Positions 24,220 to 39,745 of a stretch of DNA of 64,000 nt are shown one piece after another (the stretch's first letter is position 1; each line of letters opens with the position of its first letter). The notes beneath the pieces were generated by a model. That model had not been told where the DNA came from and did not search any database. It saw only the letters and a program-made list of their open reading frames with translations. Where the stretch lies: positions 310,001 to 374,000 of IMG/VR virus record IMGVR_UViG_3300024262_006558; one strand, 5' to 3'. The translations under genes were made by a program, and so were the position numbers. This DNA comes from a virus.

Positions 24220-24624
24220 TTATTTCAAGACTTTTTTAACATTTAAAGAATCTAAACAACATTTTTGAGGTTTAGTATAAACTCTGAATGTAACATATTC
24301 TAAACCATCTTCATCAAGTTCTATTTCAACATATTTACAAATACCTCTTATGCATACATTATGATAAATTAAGGTGCAATCATTTGGACCAGTCCAATCT
24401 TCAGTATTAGGTGCTCTTCCCATAATTTCCACTACTTCATTATAACTAAGTCCTCTCTTGTTTAAAGAAAAAGCAAGTTCTCCTTCTTCATAAGGAGTGT
24501 AATCGGAATCAATTCCTATTAATTTTTCAGCTTTATAATGAGGTAGTTTATTGTCATTACATGAAAACCCAAACAACACACCTATCATTAAACCAATTAT
24601 TGCAATTACTGTTCTTTGAGCCAT
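24220..24624 (-). CDS. Lipoprotein with SmpA/OmlA (BamE)-like domain
   Basis: N-terminal signal with a lipobox: a hydrophobic stretch AIIGLMIGVLFGFSC ending in Cys22, the expected lipidation site. The mature part has LNKRGLSYNEVVEIMGRAP, which resembles the G-x-s-x-x-E-V-x-x-x-x-G-x-P core of SmpA/OmlA/BamE domains, and four cysteines that could pair. It would sit in the outer membrane or periplasm. Phage lipoproteins often block superinfection; that role is inference. It overlaps gltX by 19 bases. Confidence 0.7.
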   Translation of the reverse strand: MAQRTVIAIIGLMIGVLFGFSCNDNKLPHYKAEKLIGIDSDYTPYEEGELAFSLNKRGLSYNEVVEIMGRAPNTEDWTGPNDCTLIYHNVCIRGICKYVEIELDEDGLEYVTFRVYTKPQKCCLDSLNVKKVLK

Positions 24625-26183
24625 AATAATACATTTTTAATTCTAAATATTGTTTCATCTGATCCTATTAATTCCATAATTGGAAATAATTCAGGTCCGC
24701 CAGTTTCTTGTGTTATAATATACCTTAATGGTTTTAACACATCACCAAACTTCACACCAAGGTCATCACAAGTAATCTTTAAGTAATTCTTTGTTTGAGC
24801 AGTTGGGACCGTTGTATAGTCTTCATAAAAATCAGTAAGAACCTCTACAACATTATCAGTCAATTGCTTTTTAAGAATGCTCCAATCATAATCTTCTTTA
24901 TTAAGTGGAAGGAATAAATACTGAGATTTTGGCATCAGATCAGTTATAAACTCTACTCGATCCTTAAGGAGATCGCAAGCTTTAGTAGCGTATACTTCAT
25001 TAAGCCTGGATAATGTAAAGTGAGGCTTATAAACCTCACCCCAACTTTCAACCTCATATTTCCAGTCTTTCAATAAAGTTTCAGCTAATACACTTGAATC
25101 AGTTTGGCGAATATACTTTCCATTCATCCAAGTAATCTTTTCATTGTCATAGCGAATACCTGCTTTGTTAACTCTATCCATAGAGAATGCATTTACCAAT
25201 TCTTCAAAGGTAAAAATCTCTTGATCGTTGCCAGGGTTCCACCCTAACATCGCCATAAAATTTACTACAGCATCTTTATCATAACCTCCCTCTTTATAAC
25301 CTAAACATGTAATTTGTTGTTTCTTTTTATCGTCATACACTTGACATTGAAAAGGATAGATAGGAAAACCTAATCTATGAGCCGTTCTCTTACTTAATTT
25401 ACCTTTACCATCAGGGTTTAAAACTAATGGCAAGTGGGCAAATTCAGGAATATCCCACCCTAAAGCTTCGTACAACATAATATGTAATGGAGTGGATGGT
25501 AACCACTCTTCCCCTCTTATCACATGAGATATCTTCATAAGATGATCATCTATGACAGCAGCTAAGTGATACGTTGGAACACCATCAGATTTCATAAGCA
25601 CTTTATCATCCACTTCATTAGAATTGAATGTGACTTTATCTCTGACCATGTCAGTAAATGTAATTTCTTTATCTTTTGTAACTTTAAATCTTATTACGTA
25701 AGACGCGCCAGAAGAAATTGCTTTTTTAACATCGCTTTCCCCCATTGTAAGAGAATTAGACATCAAGTCTCTAGTGTTATGATCATATTTAGGCATAGGA
25801 TTAATATCCGTTTTAAGATCTTCTCTCATAGCATTCAATGCCGCAGGAGTATCAAAAGCGTAATAAGCATGTCCAGATTTGATTAACTCTTGAACATATA
25901 CCTCATATAACTCCAACCTCTCAGATTGTATATATGGACCATCAAGGCCGCCTATGCCTGGACCTTCATCAAACTCTATACCGCACCAATCCATAGATTT
26001 CTTGATATATTCTTGAGCTCCTTCTACGAGCCTTGAACTATCTGTATCTTCTATTCTGAGTATTAATTCACCACCATATTTAGCTGCGAACAAATAGTTG
26101 TAAAGGGCTGTTCTTATATTACCACAATGTATTGGACCTGTCGGGCTTGGAGCAAATCTAGTTCTAATGCGTTTTTCTTCCAT
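24606..26183 (-). CDS. gltX: Glutamyl-tRNA synthetase, Bacteroidota-like
   Basis: Full-length class I GluRS (525 aa). The HIGH-type signature is FAPSPTGPIHCGN at residues 10-22 and the KMSKS-type signature is GKLSKR near residue 261. The Rossmann core has LRIEDTDSSR, VIRGEEWLPS and GVPTYHLAAVIDDH. After KLSKR an insert with LGFPIYPFQ and LGYKEGGYDKDAVVNFMAML matches the form seen in Bacteroidota enzymes. It charges tRNA(Glu) with Glu. The gene follows a GIY-YIG homing endonuclease inserted antisense upstream, beyond which lies a 14-codon ghost of another gltX start. A TATTTTTG promoter-like box lies within the 80-base gap. Confidence 0.93.
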   Translation of the reverse strand: MEEKRIRTRFAPSPTGPIHCGNIRTALYNYLFAAKYGGELILRIEDTDSSRLVEGAQEYIKKSMDWCGIEFDEGPGIGGLDGPYIQSERLELYEVYVQELIKSGHAYYAFDTPAALNAMREDLKTDINPMPKYDHNTRDLMSNSLTMGESDVKKAISSGASYVIRFKVTKDKEITFTDMVRDKVTFNSNEVDDKVLMKSDGVPTYHLAAVIDDHLMKISHVIRGEEWLPSTPLHIMLYEALGWDIPEFAHLPLVLNPDGKGKLSKRTAHRLGFPIYPFQCQVYDDKKKQQITCLGYKEGGYDKDAVVNFMAMLGWNPGNDQEIFTFEELVNAFSMDRVNKAGIRYDNEKITWMNGKYIRQTDSSVLAETLLKDWKYEVESWGEVYKPHFTLSRLNEVYATKACDLLKDRVEFITDLMPKSQYLFLPLNKEDYDWSILKKQLTDNVVEVLTDFYEDYTTVPTAQTKNYLKITCDDLGVKFGDVLKPLRYIITQETGGPELFPIMELIGSDETIFRIKNVLLWLKEQ

Positions 26184-26263
26184 ATTTAATCATTTAACAC
26201 AAAAATACAATTATAAATCTAAAAAAAACAATTTTTTATAATATTTAATTATAAAGACTTATT

Positions 26264-27217
26264 ATGAAAGATAAAATAAAAATATACCAATTATCAAGTT
26301 CTAGGAACCCTGAAAATGTGAGATATATTGGTAAAACTTCAAATAGCATAAAGTGTAGATTGCAAAAACACTTAAGTAATTTAAAAGGAGATACAACTTA
26401 TAAAGGGAACTGGATAAGAAAAGAAATAAGTGATGGGTTTCATATAATTATAAAAAGTATTTATATCGTTTTAGAAAATGAGAACTGGCAAGATGTGGAA
26501 ATAAAACTTATTTCTGAATACAAAAAAAAAGGTTATAAATTGACAAACTTAACCCCAGGAGGAGAAGGGATGCATGGAAAAGATAATCCTTTCTATAATA
26601 AATCACACACTGAAGAATCTAAGCAAAAGTTGAGAATATCACAACCTTCAAGAAAGGAAGTGATTCAATATAATAAAACAGGTAAAATAATTAATAAATA
26701 TGATTCAATAGCACAAGCTTCAAAAGAATGCAAAATACCTATATCATCCATTTCTAATGTATGCAAAATAAAAAAGAAATATAAGACGGCTGGAGGTTAT
26801 GTTTGGAGATTTAAAGGTGATTCTTTTTCTTTAGAATATGAAAATCCAGCCAAAAATTTAAGAAAGAAGGTGGATCAATATAATAAAAAAGGTGAGTTAA
26901 TTGCAACGTATAATTCAGTTTCAAAAGCTTGTGATATAACCAGTATACCTTCTGGCAATATTTCTAGATGCTGCAATAAAAACCTTAAAACTGCTGGTGG
27001 ATATGTATGGAGATTTGAAAATGACCTTTTCGAAAAACCTTCTGTAAGGAAGGGTTCCAAAAATATCATTCAATTTGACGTAGATGGAAATAAAATTATG
27101 GAATACAATTCTATATCAGATGCTGTCAAAAAAACTGGAATTAATTATTCAGGAATATACCATTGTGCTAACGGTAAGGTTAAAACTATAAAAGGATATA
27201 TTTTTAAGTTTAAATAA
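26264..27217 (+). CDS. GIY-YIG homing endonuclease with NUMOD repeats
   Basis: N-terminal GIY-YIG domain (IYQLSSSRNPENVRYIGKT, then a catalytic Arg/His/Glu region with CRLQKHLSN and EIKLISEYKKKGYKLTN). A NUMOD3-like motif follows (GMHGKDNPFYNKSHTEESK), then three NUMOD1-type DNA-binding repeats of the form QYNKxGxxIxxYxSxxxAxK, each closed by GGYVWRF or GYIFKF. This is typical of free-standing phage homing enzymes. It is antisense to gltX, and its stop lies in a perfect 38-bp palindrome whose other strand ends the gltX ghost. Confidence 0.9.
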   Translation: MKDKIKIYQLSSSRNPENVRYIGKTSNSIKCRLQKHLSNLKGDTTYKGNWIRKEISDGFHIIIKSIYIVLENENWQDVEIKLISEYKKKGYKLTNLTPGGEGMHGKDNPFYNKSHTEESKQKLRISQPSRKEVIQYNKTGKIINKYDSIAQASKECKIPISSISNVCKIKKKYKTAGGYVWRFKGDSFSLEYENPAKNLRKKVDQYNKKGELIATYNSVSKACDITSIPSGNISRCCNKNLKTAGGYVWRFENDLFEKPSVRKGSKNIIQFDVDGNKIMEYNSISDAVKKTGINYSGIYHCANGKVKTIKGYIFKFK

Positions 27218-27243
27218 AAATTTATAAATTTTTATTTAAACTT
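27206..27243. repeat. Perfect 38-bp palindrome at the endonuclease 3' end
   Basis: Two 19-base arms (starting AAGTTTAAATAAAAATTTA) with no loop. It contains the TAA of the endonuclease on the top strand and the TAA of the truncated gltX ghost on the bottom strand, both reading Lys-Phe-Lys-stop. It could also act as a bidirectional terminator. Confidence 0.85.
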
Positions 27244-27285
27244 ACCTGTTGGCGAAGGCGCATATCTTACTCTTACTTTATTCAT
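27232..27285 (-). pseudogene. gltX: Ghost of a second gltX 5' end (17 codons)
   Basis: From ATG 27285 the frame reads MNKVRVRYAPSPTG, the canonical GluRS N-terminus up to the residue before the HIGH-type motif, then KFK and stop supplied by the palindrome. It differs from the intact gltX start in both protein and silent codon positions (for example GCGCCTTCGCCAACAGGT against GCTCCAAGCCCGACAGGT), so it is not a simple duplication. It keeps its own phage-type promoter upstream. I read it as the original gltX start, displaced by endonuclease insertion. Confidence 0.8.
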
Positions 27286-27289
27286 AATT

Positions 27290-27318
27290 ATATAACGAAA
27301 TTATAATCATTTTGTTGC
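27290..27318 (-). promoter_or_regulatory. Phage promoter family member before the gltX ghost
   Basis: Leftward GCAACAAAAT, then TCGTTATAT with 22 positions from G to C. It now drives only the 17-codon ghost and whatever lies antisense to the endonuclease. Confidence 0.6.
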
Positions 27319-27372: not shown

Positions 27373-28092
27373 ATGAGAAAAAGATTTTACATAAAACCTG
27401 ACTTAAAACTTTTCTTAGACCAAGATCCGCTTAGGTTTTCCAGAAGTCAAATAACAGATTTAATTGAAAACCACTTCAATATATATAGCAGTAGATTTGG
27501 TAAAAACATTCCATTCAAACTAAATAATAATCAGAAACAAATTATTAAATCTGTTTCTGAAAACAAGATAACTGTTATTTCTAAAACTAGACAATTAGGC
27601 GTTTCTACAGTTATGCAATCAATTTTAACTTTGTTAATGGCTGATGCAGATGTTACTGTTTATTATATTTGTCATAATAAACAGTCTGCTAAATCTCGTA
27701 AACAATCGATGATATATTTACTTGAATGCTTGAAAGAGTTTGAACTTCAATACAAATCTCCTGACAACCCTTCTTCATTTGATATTATAAAAGAAACTGA
27801 AAATTCTTATACTTTATCAAACTTTAGCAAAATAAAGTTCACAACTTACGATCCTAACCTTTTTAGAGGAAGTAATGCTATGCATGTTTATTTTGATGAA
27901 TGTTTACCTAACAATGTAGCTGATGCTATGATTATGTTAGGGCCAATTACGAATGCGATTAAAGGTCATAGAATTATTATATCAAACCCTACAAGTGAAG
28001 CTGAATACATTTCTCAATCTTTGAGAAACTTAAGGCATCATTTTTTAAATATACCTAGAGGTGAATACCATTTATCTCCAGCCACTTACTAG
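27373..28092 (+). CDS. Terminase-large-subunit-like ATPase domain, no nuclease domain
   Basis: TerL-type ATPase core: FKLNNNQKQIIKSVSENK adenine-binding region, Walker A VISKTRQLGVSTVMQ near residue 75, Walker B MHVYFDEC near 176, and coupling motif IIISNPTSEAE. It ends at residue 239, before the RNase H-like nuclease domain expected in a TerL of 450-600 aa. It may be a split TerL half, a free-standing ATPase, or a remnant. The N-terminus MRKRFYIKP carries the MRKxFY tag seen on nine other proteins here, eight of them in the array at the right end. Confidence 0.72.
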   Translation: MRKRFYIKPDLKLFLDQDPLRFSRSQITDLIENHFNIYSSRFGKNIPFKLNNNQKQIIKSVSENKITVISKTRQLGVSTVMQSILTLLMADADVTVYYICHNKQSAKSRKQSMIYLLECLKEFELQYKSPDNPSSFDIIKETENSYTLSNFSKIKFTTYDPNLFRGSNAMHVYFDECLPNNVADAMIMLGPITNAIKGHRIIISNPTSEAEYISQSLRNLRHHFLNIPRGEYHLSPATY

Positions 28093-32064: not shown

Positions 32065-33434
32065 ACAGAATAAAACTCTTTACGGATATTAAGAAGTATT
32101 TCTTTACCTTTTTTAGGATCAGAATCTTTAGGCAAATCACTTATAGCATAAGCTTTATCTGATTGCTTCATAAGATCTTCCGCTCCAGACAATATAGTAT
32201 CATAGTCTTGAGCTCCTTTGCGTATCGCTAAGAGCTCTTCTCTATTGTCACGCCTAACGTTAACACCTTTGCCTTCAGCGATCTCTAGAGACATCTGTAG
32301 AAGCCTATAGCAATGCATCATGTTCTTGGTATCATAACCTTTCTTAGCTGAATCTTTATAACGCTCAGGATTTCTTTCTTCAACCCAGTCCCAATATTTT
32401 TTATGAGACTTGCAGTGTTGAGTATAAGCATCCTTTGAATAAACAAAGATTGCTACAGACTCTTCAGACTTAGGAACAGAAGAAGATCTAAGAGAATTAG
32501 AAGTCTCATGCATTATCCCTTTGTATCCAAGGCCCATGAATTCACCAGCGTCCTTAGCAATTTTCTTTCTTTCTTTTCTATCCTCTTCGGGAACCATTTC
32601 AGAAAACATGTTATGCGCAGACCAATCATAAAACAATGCGAAATTATCTTTTGCATTAGGTATACTTACTATACCGCAAAACTTTTGATCATAACCATAA
32701 TGTTCTAATACCTTCTTTAATGGAATAGTCTTATGACCTTCTATTGCATAACAGAAGTCCAATGGAGTTTTTCTAGCTTTTGGCATCTCATTAACAATCA
32801 TTTTGTTTTGCCCTCTAGCTTTTGATATTTGCTTTTTAGCATATCCACCAAATGAATCTTTACATCTTTTTGACAAGAAATCTTTAGCATTAATTTGATC
32901 TAGTAACTCAGATTTAAATAACACACAATCATCTGGCATGTTTAACAACTCCAACACTGTTGGGTTGTTGCTAGTCAACATATCCATATACTTTCTAATT
33001 TCAAAATAAGAGTAATCATCTTTCTTTCTCAAGAAAGTTTGAATTGGCTCTATACCATCATCACTTACAACAGAAACTCCTTCCTTGTTTTCTATAGGAA
33101 GTTTGTCTACAATTACATTTTTATATCCTACATCAGAACATTGCTCTTTTAGAAGGTTATGTAATGCTTCTTGCATTTCATCTCTATTTTCCTGGTTCTC
33201 GCTTTTCTCTTTGAATTCTTCGAAAACGTCTTTTACTTGTTTCTTTACAGTACTTTCAATTACGTCTGGATATTCACCTAACAGTACATCATCTAACTCA
33301 GCTACAAAGATACCTCTTCTATCCTCATCTGATGTTTCTATAGCCGTGTTATAAGCGTGTGATCCAGCTATAACTTCTAACAAAAGAAGTTTATTCTCTT
33401 TGATATACTCTATAGTGTATTTGTCTTTTGACAT
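32061..33434 (-). CDS. RlaP/YcgL-type nucleotidyltransferase
   Basis: N-terminal pol-beta fold signature: VIAGSHAYNTAIETSDEDRR, the G-S-x-A-Y-x-T...S-D-x-D-x-R-G pattern of the RlaP (RNA ligase-associated) nucleotidyltransferase family, PF10127. The long remainder has DPLDFCYAIEGHK-like and helical segments (MMHCYRLLQMSLEIAEG) also typical of that family. RlaP proteins occur next to RNA ligases in predicted RNA-repair operons, and would add or rearrange nucleotides at RNA ends. A LAGLIDADG endonuclease sits immediately upstream on the other strand. Confidence 0.75.
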   Translation of the reverse strand: MSKDKYTIEYIKENKLLLLEVIAGSHAYNTAIETSDEDRRGIFVAELDDVLLGEYPDVIESTVKKQVKDVFEEFKEKSENQENRDEMQEALHNLLKEQCSDVGYKNVIVDKLPIENKEGVSVVSDDGIEPIQTFLRKKDDYSYFEIRKYMDMLTSNNPTVLELLNMPDDCVLFKSELLDQINAKDFLSKRCKDSFGGYAKKQISKARGQNKMIVNEMPKARKTPLDFCYAIEGHKTIPLKKVLEHYGYDQKFCGIVSIPNAKDNFALFYDWSAHNMFSEMVPEEDRKERKKIAKDAGEFMGLGYKGIMHETSNSLRSSSVPKSEESVAIFVYSKDAYTQHCKSHKKYWDWVEERNPERYKDSAKKGYDTKNMMHCYRLLQMSLEIAEGKGVNVRRDNREELLAIRKGAQDYDTILSGAEDLMKQSDKAYAISDLPKDSDPKKGKEILLNIRKEFYSV

Positions 33435-33487
33435 TTTTTAATATATTTATAATTAAAACAACTCTAATTGTACACTATCAACTTACT

Positions 33488-34522
33488 ATGTGGAACCGTA
33501 TAAAATTAGACTCAGAAGAAATAGTAAAATTATATCAATCTGGATTATCTGCAGCAAAGATAGGTAAAAAATTTAACACTAGCAATACTCCAATATACAG
33601 AATTTTAAAAGAAGAGGGAGTTCAACTGAGATCTTTTAGTGAAATGAATAGAAAATATAAAGTAAATGAAACCTATTTTGATGTAATAAACTCTCATGAA
33701 AAAGCTTATATTTTAGGTCTGATTTATGCTGATGGATGTAATAAGGTTTATAAAAATACAATAGACATTTCTTTACATAAAAAGGATGTTGACATTCTAA
33801 AAAAAATAAAAAATATAATTCAGCCAGATAAACCTCTAGGTTTTAGTAAAAAAATGAATCAATATTCATTTAGAATTGAAAATAAACATATCTCTAAACA
33901 ACTAGAGCTAAAAGGAGTTATTCAAGCAAAGAGTTTAAAAATAACATTTCCCACTAAAAAAATTGTTCCTAAAAAATTTGTTCATTCCTTTGTACTTGGA
34001 TATTTTGATGGTGATGGCAGCTTATCTATTAGTAAACAAAAATACAATAGAGGATCTATAAATATTACTGGAACTGAAAATTTTGTAGATCATATAATTA
34101 GATTATCAGAAAATATAAAATGCAATTGGTATAAATATCAAAGATTCCCTGAAAGGAACAATAATAACTACACTATACAAATGTGTGGATCAGTTCAAAG
34201 TATTAGATTTCTAAAATGGATGTATAAAGATTCTCCTATTTTTATGCAAAGAAAACATGATACATTTAATAAACTTTTATTTACTCAATTAGAAAAGGAA
34301 AATAGAAAACAGGAAATTAAAAACAGAAAACAGGAAGATCAAAAAAAAAAAGAAGACAAATATATTAAATATAAAAAAGAGTATAATATGGTTATTTCTC
34401 TTTATAAGAGAGGAAAATCTATAAGAGAAATACAAGATCTAATTGGTGTCGATCGTAGGAAATCAAGTAAATATATTAAAGAACAGGGTATTAACATTAA
34501 AATGGGAGGATGGAATAATTAA
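33488..34522 (+). CDS. LAGLIDADG homing endonuclease with terminal HTH modules
   Basis: Two LAGLIDADG-type motifs, YILGLIYADGC near residue 76 and FVLGYFDGDGSLS near 173, with flanking beta sheets. N-terminal HTH (EIVKLYQSGLSAAKIGKKF) and C-terminal HTH (VISLYKRGKSIREIQDLIG) may help target recognition. Start taken at ATG 33488 (MWNRIKLD), since a longer frame would run into the start of the antisense RlaP-type gene. It lies in the gap upstream of that gene and does not break any recognised ORF. Its stop overlaps the stop of the small membrane gene. Confidence 0.88.
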   Translation: MWNRIKLDSEEIVKLYQSGLSAAKIGKKFNTSNTPIYRILKEEGVQLRSFSEMNRKYKVNETYFDVINSHEKAYILGLIYADGCNKVYKNTIDISLHKKDVDILKKIKNIIQPDKPLGFSKKMNQYSFRIENKHISKQLELKGVIQAKSLKITFPTKKIVPKKFVHSFVLGYFDGDGSLSISKQKYNRGSINITGTENFVDHIIRLSENIKCNWYKYQRFPERNNNNYTIQMCGSVQSIRFLKWMYKDSPIFMQRKHDTFNKLLFTQLEKENRKQEIKNRKQEDQKKKEDKYIKYKKEYNMVISLYKRGKSIREIQDLIGVDRRKSSKYIKEQGINIKMGGWNN

Positions 34523-37389: not shown

Positions 37390-38118
37390 TTATGATAAGA
37401 AGAAATCTAATAACCCTTCCGAGGTTTTCTTTTGTTTAGACAAAACGCAATCAATAGACATCTTTTCTCCAGGCTTTATGGTAGCATATGTTAATTTACC
37501 ACCTTTATAACATCCAGTGTCTATATTAATCTTATTAAATACGGTCATATATCCGCAGGCAATATGTCCAAAAAAATGGGATGGATGAATAAGTGAAGCC
37601 TCTTGTTTCAAAAAAGAGAAAAATATTTCGATCTCTTTAATGTAAGCACTTTCTCTATCCGACATCTTTTTAGTTTTCTTGTTCACCTTCCTATAAAAGA
37701 ATTCAACAATTTTATCAACAATAGATTCTGCTCCAGGCATTTTAGGATACATTACATGTTGCTGATACTTCAAACTTTTACCGTGAAGCTTGCCGATGTA
37801 TTTATTTCTACATGGAGCATGAGTAACTACAAACTCTTTATGTATATAAAATGATTTAGCATTTTCAACAAGCTCAAAGAACTTTTCTCTTAACTCCTCA
37901 TCATCTTGTAATAAAAGAACTGTGTCAAAGTAGTTCTCAATCAATCCAGGCTCAACAGATTTAGCTGGTATAATACCTTTTAAATATTTGTAAACCCAGT
38001 TCTCATGATTTCCTACAGTAAGAAAGAACCATTCTTGGTTATTATAAATAAATTCTATAACACCTCTAGAGTCAGGCCCTTTATCTATCCAATCACCTAA
38101 TAATAATATTTTTTTCAT
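37390..38118 (-). CDS. C-terminal part of split PPP-family phosphatase
   Basis: Starts MKKILLLGDWIDKGPDSRG, which is motif II of PPP metallophosphatases, followed by motif III TVGNHENW near residue 36, a His-bearing VVTHAPCRNKYIG, and the last metal and substrate motifs FFGHIACGYM and IDTGCYKGGKLTYA. Motif I (GDxHG) is absent; it is found at the end of the leftward gene at 39215-39745, on the far side of a LAGLIDADG endonuclease. The two pieces join as ...NNKI / LLLGDWIDKG. It is probably made separately from its own promoter and may assemble with the other half. Confidence 0.85.
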   Translation of the reverse strand: MKKILLLGDWIDKGPDSRGVIEFIYNNQEWFFLTVGNHENWVYKYLKGIIPAKSVEPGLIENYFDTVLLLQDDEELREKFFELVENAKSFYIHKEFVVTHAPCRNKYIGKLHGKSLKYQQHVMYPKMPGAESIVDKIVEFFYRKVNKKTKKMSDRESAYIKEIEIFFSFLKQEASLIHPSHFFGHIACGYMTVFNKINIDTGCYKGGKLTYATIKPGEKMSIDCVLSKQKKTSEGLLDFFLS

Positions 38119-38150
38119 ATTTATAATAGTGTTTAAAAACGCTAGTTTAT

Positions 38151-38180
38151 ATTAAAACGTAGTATTATATAAAATGTTGC
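38151..38180 (-). promoter_or_regulatory. Phage promoter family member before the phosphatase C-half
   Basis: Leftward GCAACATTTT, then TACGTTTTAAT with 22 positions from G to C, about 35 bases before the C-half ATG. It lies between the endonuclease start and the severed gene, so it restarts transcription of the downstream half. Confidence 0.6.
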
Positions 38181-38186
38181 AAAAAA

Positions 38187-39218
38187 ATGGGAAAAAGGTG
38201 GAATAAAAAAGAAGAAGAATTTTTAAAAGAAAACTATCCTACTCAAGGACTAGAGTATTGTCATAACAAATTAGATAGAAATAAAAAGTCTATAATATGT
38301 AAAACGAATAAATTAAACCTAAAATTAGAAGATAAGGTTAAATCTAAAATTCTAAAAAAGTTTCGCATTAAAGATGTGAAAGAGTATAAAATAAACCCAA
38401 ATCAATTCTTTAATATCAAATCTAAAAAAGTTGCTTATTTTTTAGGTTTTTTATGGGCTGATGGACATATAACCAAAACTGGGTATAATATTAACATAGA
38501 AATTAAAAAAGAAGACATGAATTATGTTAAGCCTATATTTGATTCGTTAGGTATATGGGGATACTATGAAAGAAATCGAAACAATTGGGCTACTCAATCT
38601 AAAATAAGTACAAACAATTATCATATACACAAATTTTTAAAAGAAAATGATTACCATATTAAATCTTATGAATCTCCAGATAAAATTTTATCTAAAATAC
38701 CTGAATATTTAAAACATTATTTTTTTAGAGGATGGAGTGATGGAGATGGTTGTTTCATAAGTAATCATAATTATCACAATTTTGTTTTAACTGGTGATAA
38801 GTCTCAAAAATGGAATGCAACAAAATTTTTAGTGCAAGAGTTGGGTATTAAAAATTATAGGATAATAATAAATGAGAATAAAAAAAGTTCCTCTTCATAT
38901 CTGAAAATATCAAATAAAAAAGATATAGCACTTTTAGGAGATTACCTTTATCAAGGATTCAGTAAAGATAAAATAGGATTACCTAGAAAATATCATACAT
39001 ACGAAACAATAAAGGAAAAATCTTCCAAAACTAGATACCTCACACCAGAACAAAGAAATAAAGCAATAGAAAATAACTTAGGAGCAAAAAATCCAGCTTA
39101 CAAAAATGTTAATGTTGGTGTGATTACGGAAATGAGAGAAAAAGGTCAAACTCTCCAAAATATAGCTGATCATTTTAATGTTAGCATTTGGACTATAAGA
39201 ACAAGGTTAAAACCTTAG
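38187..39218 (+). CDS. LAGLIDADG homing endonuclease splitting a phosphatase gene
   Basis: Two motifs, YFLGFLWADGHI near residue 84 and FFRGWSDGDGCF near 180, mark a single-chain LAGLIDADG enzyme. The N-terminus (RWNKKEEEFLKENYPTQG) looks like a small SANT/Myb-type DNA-binding helix set, and the C-terminus is an HTH (LQNIADHFNVSIWTIRTRL). It sits antisense between two pieces of one metallophosphatase, and its stop codon lies in a 21-base palindrome shared with the stop of the phosphatase N-half. Confidence 0.9.
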   Translation: MGKRWNKKEEEFLKENYPTQGLEYCHNKLDRNKKSIICKTNKLNLKLEDKVKSKILKKFRIKDVKEYKINPNQFFNIKSKKVAYFLGFLWADGHITKTGYNINIEIKKEDMNYVKPIFDSLGIWGYYERNRNNWATQSKISTNNYHIHKFLKENDYHIKSYESPDKILSKIPEYLKHYFFRGWSDGDGCFISNHNYHNFVLTGDKSQKWNATKFLVQELGIKNYRIIINENKKSSSSYLKISNKKDIALLGDYLYQGFSKDKIGLPRKYHTYETIKEKSSKTRYLTPEQRNKAIENNLGAKNPAYKNVNVGVITEMREKGQTLQNIADHFNVSIWTIRTRLKP

Positions 39219-39235
39219 GAGTTATTAACTCCTAA
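39215..39235. repeat. 21-base palindrome carrying two opposed stop codons
   Basis: Arms TTAGGAGTTA / TAACTCCTAA with one central base. It contains the TAG of the endonuclease (top strand) and the TAA of the phosphatase N-half (bottom strand). It is equivalent in position to the palindrome at 27206-27243. Confidence 0.75.
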
Positions 39236-39745
39236 AATTTTATTGTTTACCATATCGATCTCAAACCCATTTTTAACTAATGCTTCTTTAAACTCTTCTA
39301 AGCATCCATGAATATCCCCGACAACAATCCACTCTTTTGTTTCATCTAATTTATGAGTCAACAAAGTTTCATGTGATGTAGAAACTATTTCATTATCGAT
39401 ATCCTTTATGAAAATCTCAATCTCTCCTTTTTTCTTAGAGTTCTTTCCAGAAAGTAAAGCCTCATCAAATATCAAAGAAACTAAGTTGTAGTTATTTCTA
39501 TCCGCAATACTTTTGATACCTTTTTTTGTTAAACCATCTTCAGCAATTACAAAATAAGTATTCTTAGGATATTCGGTTGATTTCTCAATCTCATCCAAAT
39601 CACCTAAAATAACAACAGAAGAATCATCTAATGATTTTAATGCTGGATGCAGACGATCTTTTACGAAAGTATCTCTTTCTACATCTGTAGCTCCAACTAA
39701 CATTATGATGCTGTGTACTGGAATATCGATTTTTTGTTTCTTCAT
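39215..39745 (-). CDS. N-terminal part of split kinase-phosphatase (Pnkp-like)
   Basis: Residues 1-135 look like a P-loop kinase fold with a worn-out Walker A (IIMLVGATDVERDTF where GxxGxGKS/T is expected). Residues 138-172 hold PPP motif I, EWIVVGDIHGCLEEFKEAL, then NGFEIDMVNNKILG, after which the frame runs into GVNNS and stop inside a palindrome. The missing motifs are in the gene at 37390-38118. A kinase domain followed by a PPP phosphatase is the order of bacterial Pnkp, the RNA end-healing enzyme. The kinase part is probably inactive. Confidence 0.8.
   Translation of the reverse strand: MKKQKIDIPVHSIIMLVGATDVERDTFVKDRLHPALKSLDDSSVVILGDLDEIEKSTEYPKNTYFVIAEDGLTKKGIKSIADRNNYNLVSLIFDEALLSGKNSKKKGEIEIFIKDIDNEIVSTSHETLLTHKLDETKEWIVVGDIHGCLEEFKEALVKNGFEIDMVNNKILGVNNS

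Follow-up and report, generated by a model that had tools for sequence, protein, structure and literature searches.

The closest known parallel to the locus described here is found in fungal mitochondria, where the mORFs of Allomyces and Glomus replace the 3′ end of atp6, atp9, cox2, and nad3 and displace the native end (PMC3630166). In phages, T4-type endonucleases are intergenic, cut hundreds to thousands of base pairs away, and spread via flanking homology, and the insertions of mobE in nrdA of Aeh1 and of mobA in gene 60 of T4 leave these genes split and encoding two polypeptides (PMC2988022). Replacement of a 5′ end by a phage endonuclease was not reported in the literature searched (mostly open-access, with few subscription papers or preprints), and a survey of phage nucleases at exchange boundaries (PMC10448857) yielded no such case in the passages searched; within this literature, 5′ replacement in phages is apparently undescribed.

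The window analyzed here, a 64-kb stretch of DNA (positions 310001–374000 of a 388,594-bp virus record), contains two starts of gltX. In leftward order, a displaced ("ghost") start comes first, followed by a palindrome of 40 bp, a GIY-YIG homing endonuclease gene in antisense orientation, and the complete gltX, whose own start differs from the ghost. The complete gene (24606..26183, minus strand) encodes a glutamyl-tRNA synthetase of 525 amino acids, which was aligned with seven phage gltX, matches Pfam PF00749 (tRNA-synt_1c, 6e-91) and PF19269, and includes both the HIGH-type (HCGN) and KLSKR motifs. Its start reads MEEKRIRTRFAPSPTGPIHCGN, and the first 16 codons (MEEKRIRTRFAPSPTG; 26136..26183, minus strand) are the proposed cassette-borne replacement, as judged from their silent differences from the ghost and by analogy with the kinase loci L129 and L130 described below. 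The ghost comprises 14 codons (MNKVRVRYAPSPTG; 27244..27285, minus strand), with its ATG at 27285 and its last codon, GGT, at 27244, and is broken where the intact gene goes on PIHCGN; chance KFK codons and a stop follow. Four of the six APSPTG codons differ silently between the ghost and the present start (GCG/GCT, CCT/CCA, TCG/AGC, and CCA/CCG), which excludes a recent tandem duplication. Moreover, as the differences include a serine encoded by TCG in one and AGC in the other, the two starts must be old, diverged alleles.

The motif PSP[TS]G is found twice in the six frames of the window, in the ghost and in the intact gltX start, and nowhere else. Chance resemblance, or a metagenome mis-assembly at the gltX junction, can be dismissed almost entirely. 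The window is a virus contig without a read check, which leaves mis-assembly conceivable, but the ghost aligned with the gltX N terminus with a score of 51, as compared with a maximum of 36 among 200 shuffles of the flank, a separate contig reproduces a sister locus, and the same pattern recurs in unrelated phages (both below). A truncated second large terminase, with the ATPase half only, adjoins the ghost at 27373–28092, and a longer terminase match is located elsewhere in the same phage (G000:56254–57843).

The palindrome (27205..27244) is perfect and has its last base exactly at the ghost break, and no perfect inverted repeat in the window is longer; the shuffled window contained no palindrome with an arm of ≥11. 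It folds with an energy of −17.1 kcal/mol (z −4.0) and is likely to act as a bidirectional terminator where the endonuclease and the ghost converge, a function inferred from its sequence. On the other side of the endonuclease, 24 nt before the gltX ATG and within the proposed cassette, lies TATTTTTG (26200..26207, minus strand), a Bacteroidota-type −7 box (TAnnTTTG). This motif is enriched in the phage of the window: of 63 upstream regions on the minus strand, 15 contain it, where about 4.9 would be expected. The proposed mobile cassette (26136..27243, about 1.1 kb) would thus comprise terminator, endonuclease, promoter, and new gltX 5′ end, with the ghost-side edge set by the ghost break and the gltX-side (right) edge inferred via the L129/L130 analogy. 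A preliminary description of the locus had reported the order of ghost, palindrome, antisense endonuclease, and intact gltX, the break exactly at PIHCGN, and the silent differences between the two starts, all of which held, and a palindrome of 38 bp, which is corrected here to a perfect 40 bp.

The endonuclease gene (26264..27217, plus strand) encodes 317 amino acids, with matches to NUMOD1, NUMOD3, and I-HmuI-NUMOD, and these DNA-binding repeats are located in the C-terminal part. Searched on its own against Pfam, the protein reached no GIY-YIG match. It aligns over its N-terminal part to a family whose members match Pfam GIY-YIG (PF01541) in 10 of 11 cases and whose profile matches the catalytic domain of I-TevI (1mk0) with an E value of 0.0022. 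Tyr8, Tyr21, Gly23, Arg32, Glu79, and Asn95 are invariant across the 11 aligned endonucleases; among them are the Arg, Glu, and Asn expected of the catalytic domain. The sequence of the window enzyme therefore meets the criteria for a GIY-YIG endonuclease, with a catalytic domain and separate DNA-binding modules, whereas site-specific cleavage and homing are inferred.

The window also contains two endonucleases of the LAGLIDADG type, and no ghost starts were found when sought at either. The first (38187–39218, plus strand) splits a metallophosphoesterase gene (37390–39745), an outcome unlike that at gltX: the upstream part (39215–39745, minus strand) ends shortly after GDIHGC, and the downstream part (37390–38118, minus strand) begins MKKILLLGDWIDKGPDS, with a Pfam Metallophos match from model position 34. 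The second (33428–34522) has a resolvase-like HTH, and the gene immediately downstream of it encodes an RlaP/nucleotidyltransferase.

No endonuclease-free close allele of gltX was found in IMG/VR, GenBank phages, or GTDB contigs, the nearest gltX being about 46–47% identical and the best bacterial matches being from Flavobacteriaceae; TerL failed as a handle on relatives of the phage. Consequently, the insertion model for gltX itself, including the gltX-side cassette edge and the swap of the gltX start, is only inferred. An alignment of eight phage gltX genes was used to draw 54 gltX loci from IMG/VR. Besides the window, seven distinct phage loci have a related GIY-YIG gene abutting the 5′ end of gltX, in antisense (L032, L038, L040, and L045) or sense (L015, L016, and L026) orientation, which brings the total to eight. 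None of these seven is near enough to the window to act as an uninserted allele. A possible weak ghost, (N)LKVRFAP, was seen in L026 and none was recognizable in the other six, where it is possible that the endonuclease merely sits upstream of gltX. Two suggestions regarding these genes were abandoned: that unusual PSPTG/HIGH residues in endonuclease-bearing gltX provide self-protection (the endonuclease-free L033 and L036 vary likewise), and that the other gltX-linked endonucleases share a common 5′ gltX cassette (identity is not raised in the 5′ segment). In the gltX of another phage contig (L031, 3501–3560), 6 extra bases with an in-frame TAA lie exactly in the PSPT/TG codons (CCTACGTAAACTGGG), at the same position as the ghost break in the window; these could be either a repair scar or a sequence error.

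The mobile unit itself was delimited in a dNMP kinase gene. Two contigs from different metagenomes, L129 and L130, have a common 689-bp segment (9 mismatches) in the Walker-A codons of this gene, which starts at the ghost break between CAYGG and GCTTGTAAC, runs through the endonuclease, and ends (...GGTAAAGATAC / ...GGTCACATGCGTAGTGGTAAAGATAC) inside the kinase. The new kinase start of 62 nt is identical in both, whereas outside the cassette there are differences at 16 of 38 nt between the ghosts and at 78 of 435 nt (18%) between the kinase bodies. Uninserted alleles also exist: L184 is the same as the L130 ghost over 44 nt and then runs straight into KDTLAEIL, and the endonuclease-free L162 resembles the L129 ghost. 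Since the two loci share endonuclease and new start while differing in ghosts and bodies, and uninserted alleles are available, this comparison establishes that the mobile unit in L129/L130 is the endonuclease together with the replacement gene start. The insertion lies in conserved codons, with the native start displaced and the target ORF preserved. The junctions share few bases, GG(G) on the left and AAAGATAC on the right, with almost no co-conversion on either side. Four of 29 kinase loci contain an endonuclease of the same family, namely L160 (= L130), L161 (= L129), L176, and L178. L176 is a third insertion, with the same left boundary (GG followed by GCTTGTAACTTTT) as in L129/L130; it retains CATGGGAAAGATAC, so the change of bases that is inferred below to protect the new start is not uniform. 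In L178 (1880–2461), the related endonuclease is upstream of a dNMP kinase with an altered Walker A (SARWGKD), and no ghost was recognizable.

The phage of the window carries a second, related endonuclease (L003; G000:111236–111871; 39–43% identical over the matched part), which is flanked by the ghost MENSIKIITPF on one side and, on the other, by a glycosyltransferase with the start MDGNIKNRFVIITPFYN. The endonuclease-free relatives L234 and L235 begin MNNSFKIIVPFYN and MERSFKIIVPFYN, respectively, unbroken and ghost-like, unlike the present L003 start; the two upstream genes in L234 are the same as in L003, and the L003 glycosyltransferase body is still orthologous to these relatives. Mis-assembly of L003 is argued against by L233, a separate contig from another metagenome that reproduces the locus with 100% identity over 3520 nt. 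The guanylate kinase gene of the 642-kb phage LR756502 is arranged in the same manner, with the ghost IIFLGKSGSG, and an uninserted sibling, LR745206, has a syntenic left flank.

For a wider scan, 69 distinct related endonucleases were collected, and each gene with an abutting 5′ end was checked for a second start on the far side, with the chance expectation taken from 6,498 cross-locus pairs. At a threshold score of ≥38, ghost starts were found for 5 of 82 adjacent genes (the window, L129, L112, L026, and L130), compared with 0.11 expected. L003 and L069 gave lower scores, yet are supported by uninserted relatives, and a match at L159 (score 36–40) was discounted because its sequence is AT-rich and of low complexity. 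The clearest ghosts mostly start with ATG, and those with a known motif break inside it: Walker A in the dNMP and guanylate kinases, PSPTG in gltX, and IITPF(YN) in the family-2 glycosyltransferase. The L112 gene, of unknown function, has the ghost MKTKDFIKML and uninserted relatives. The convincing cases are modest in number, comprising the window gltX, the dNMP kinase (three loci), the glycosyltransferase, the guanylate kinase, and the L112 gene, with L026 gltX being weak.

Two further explanations were considered for the window. In the first, the endonuclease arrived with a complete foreign gltX through long co-conversion, the ghost being the scar of the old gene, with no specific 5′-end cargo. 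In the absence of a close relative, there is no means of judging how far foreign DNA extends to the left of 26136, and the new start and the gltX body are alike in GC3 (25 and 27%, respectively), a composition that is uninformative on the origin of the start. However, the segment shared by L129 and L130 ends at the junction codons, beyond which the bodies are 18% different, and the orthology of the L003 body is also against it; whole-gene replacement is therefore unlikely. In the second, a complete second gltX stood upstream, was invaded by the endonuclease, and was deleted except for a 14-codon remnant. This would fit two starts that are diverged alleles, neither copied from the other, but the entire 388.6-kb record has only one gltX, the uninserted sister loci have a single copy of the target gene, and ghosts stop in conserved motifs across several unrelated genes, which makes this explanation very improbable. 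The central proposal of the preliminary description, that the element inserts in conserved 5′ codons and carries a replacement 5′ end, held directly in the relatives L129/L130 and L003, and is inferred for the window gltX; of the checks it had suggested, the search for an uninserted allele was unsuccessful (closest phage gltX about 46%), and the GC3 comparison of the first 16 codons was the uninformative one given above.

The preferred reading is that the element in the window is likely a homing cassette, in which the gene for a GIY-YIG endonuclease is linked to a substitute 5′ end for the targeted gene, with homing and expression being inferred. The enzyme would cut uninserted gltX at the conserved PSPTG/HIGH codons, a claim already made in the preliminary description and inferred from the break point only; in the kinase the equivalent cut is expected between CAYGG and GAAAGATAC of the uninserted allele. 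Repair templated by an inserted genome would then put the whole cassette into the break and leave the old start on its far side as the ghost. The new start would restore an unbroken frame into the gltX body and keep the synthetase functional; the ORF and motifs are observed, and activity is inferred. The orientation of the endonuclease appears to make a difference. Because its endonuclease is antisense, the window cassette supplies gltX with a promoter box and includes the palindrome as a terminator; both are present in the sequence and inferred in function. In the sense cassettes (L129, L130, L003, and L112), the endonuclease stop overlaps or closely precedes the new ATG, and the target would therefore be readable from the ghost's own promoter. 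The new start, with many bases unlike the ghost, would also help to escape re-cutting.

As in the fungal mORFs (PMC3630166), a free endonuclease lies in coding sequence, a gene end is carried, a native fragment is displaced, and uninserted relatives can be compared. The preliminary description had also drawn this parallel. In the mORFs, however, it is the 3′ (C-terminal) end that is replaced, with a transcript shown; in every case here it is the 5′ end, and the replacement includes the start codon and, for the window, also a promoter box. The hosts here are phages, the endonucleases belong to the GIY-YIG type and carry NUMOD repeats, and the insertions hit kinase P-loops, a glycosyltransferase, and, in an aminoacyl-tRNA synthetase, the codons of the HIGH motif. 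The mORF criterion of a displaced native end and a foreign joined end is met, with uninserted alleles, in L129/L130 and L003; the window offers the two starts only. The cassettes resemble the free-standing GIY-YIG enzymes of the T4 Seg type (PMC2988022) in the absence of an intron, their position beside an apparent target, and a bias to conserved genes; unlike these, the cassettes of the window, L003, L129, and L130 lie in target codons, at the apparent cut site, itself inferred. As with mobE and mobA, the endonuclease has entered a region of a phage gene that is critical for function, but here the gene is made whole again through the carried 5′ end rather than split. Group I introns and inteins also occupy conserved codons and leave the host gene functional; in the cassettes no splicing is needed, and the codons that precede the insertion site are provided a second time.

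On balance we favor, with some reserve, a bolder reading in which these loci represent a general class of phage cassette, pairing an endonuclease with a replacement start within sharply defined boundaries, with hardly any co-conversion, and forming a splicing-free counterpart of the mobile intron that targets the most conserved codons (P-loop, HIGH, and GT-A motifs) near 5′ ends. Such cassettes give a selfish endonuclease a way into conserved codons of important genes that requires no intron, intein, or split gene, since the missing start is carried along. They account for puzzling orphan gene starts beside endonucleases in phage genomes and create hybrid genes, with first codons and promoter from another phage. 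With its natural inserted and empty alleles, the dNMP kinase is a ready test system for homing with very short junction homology.
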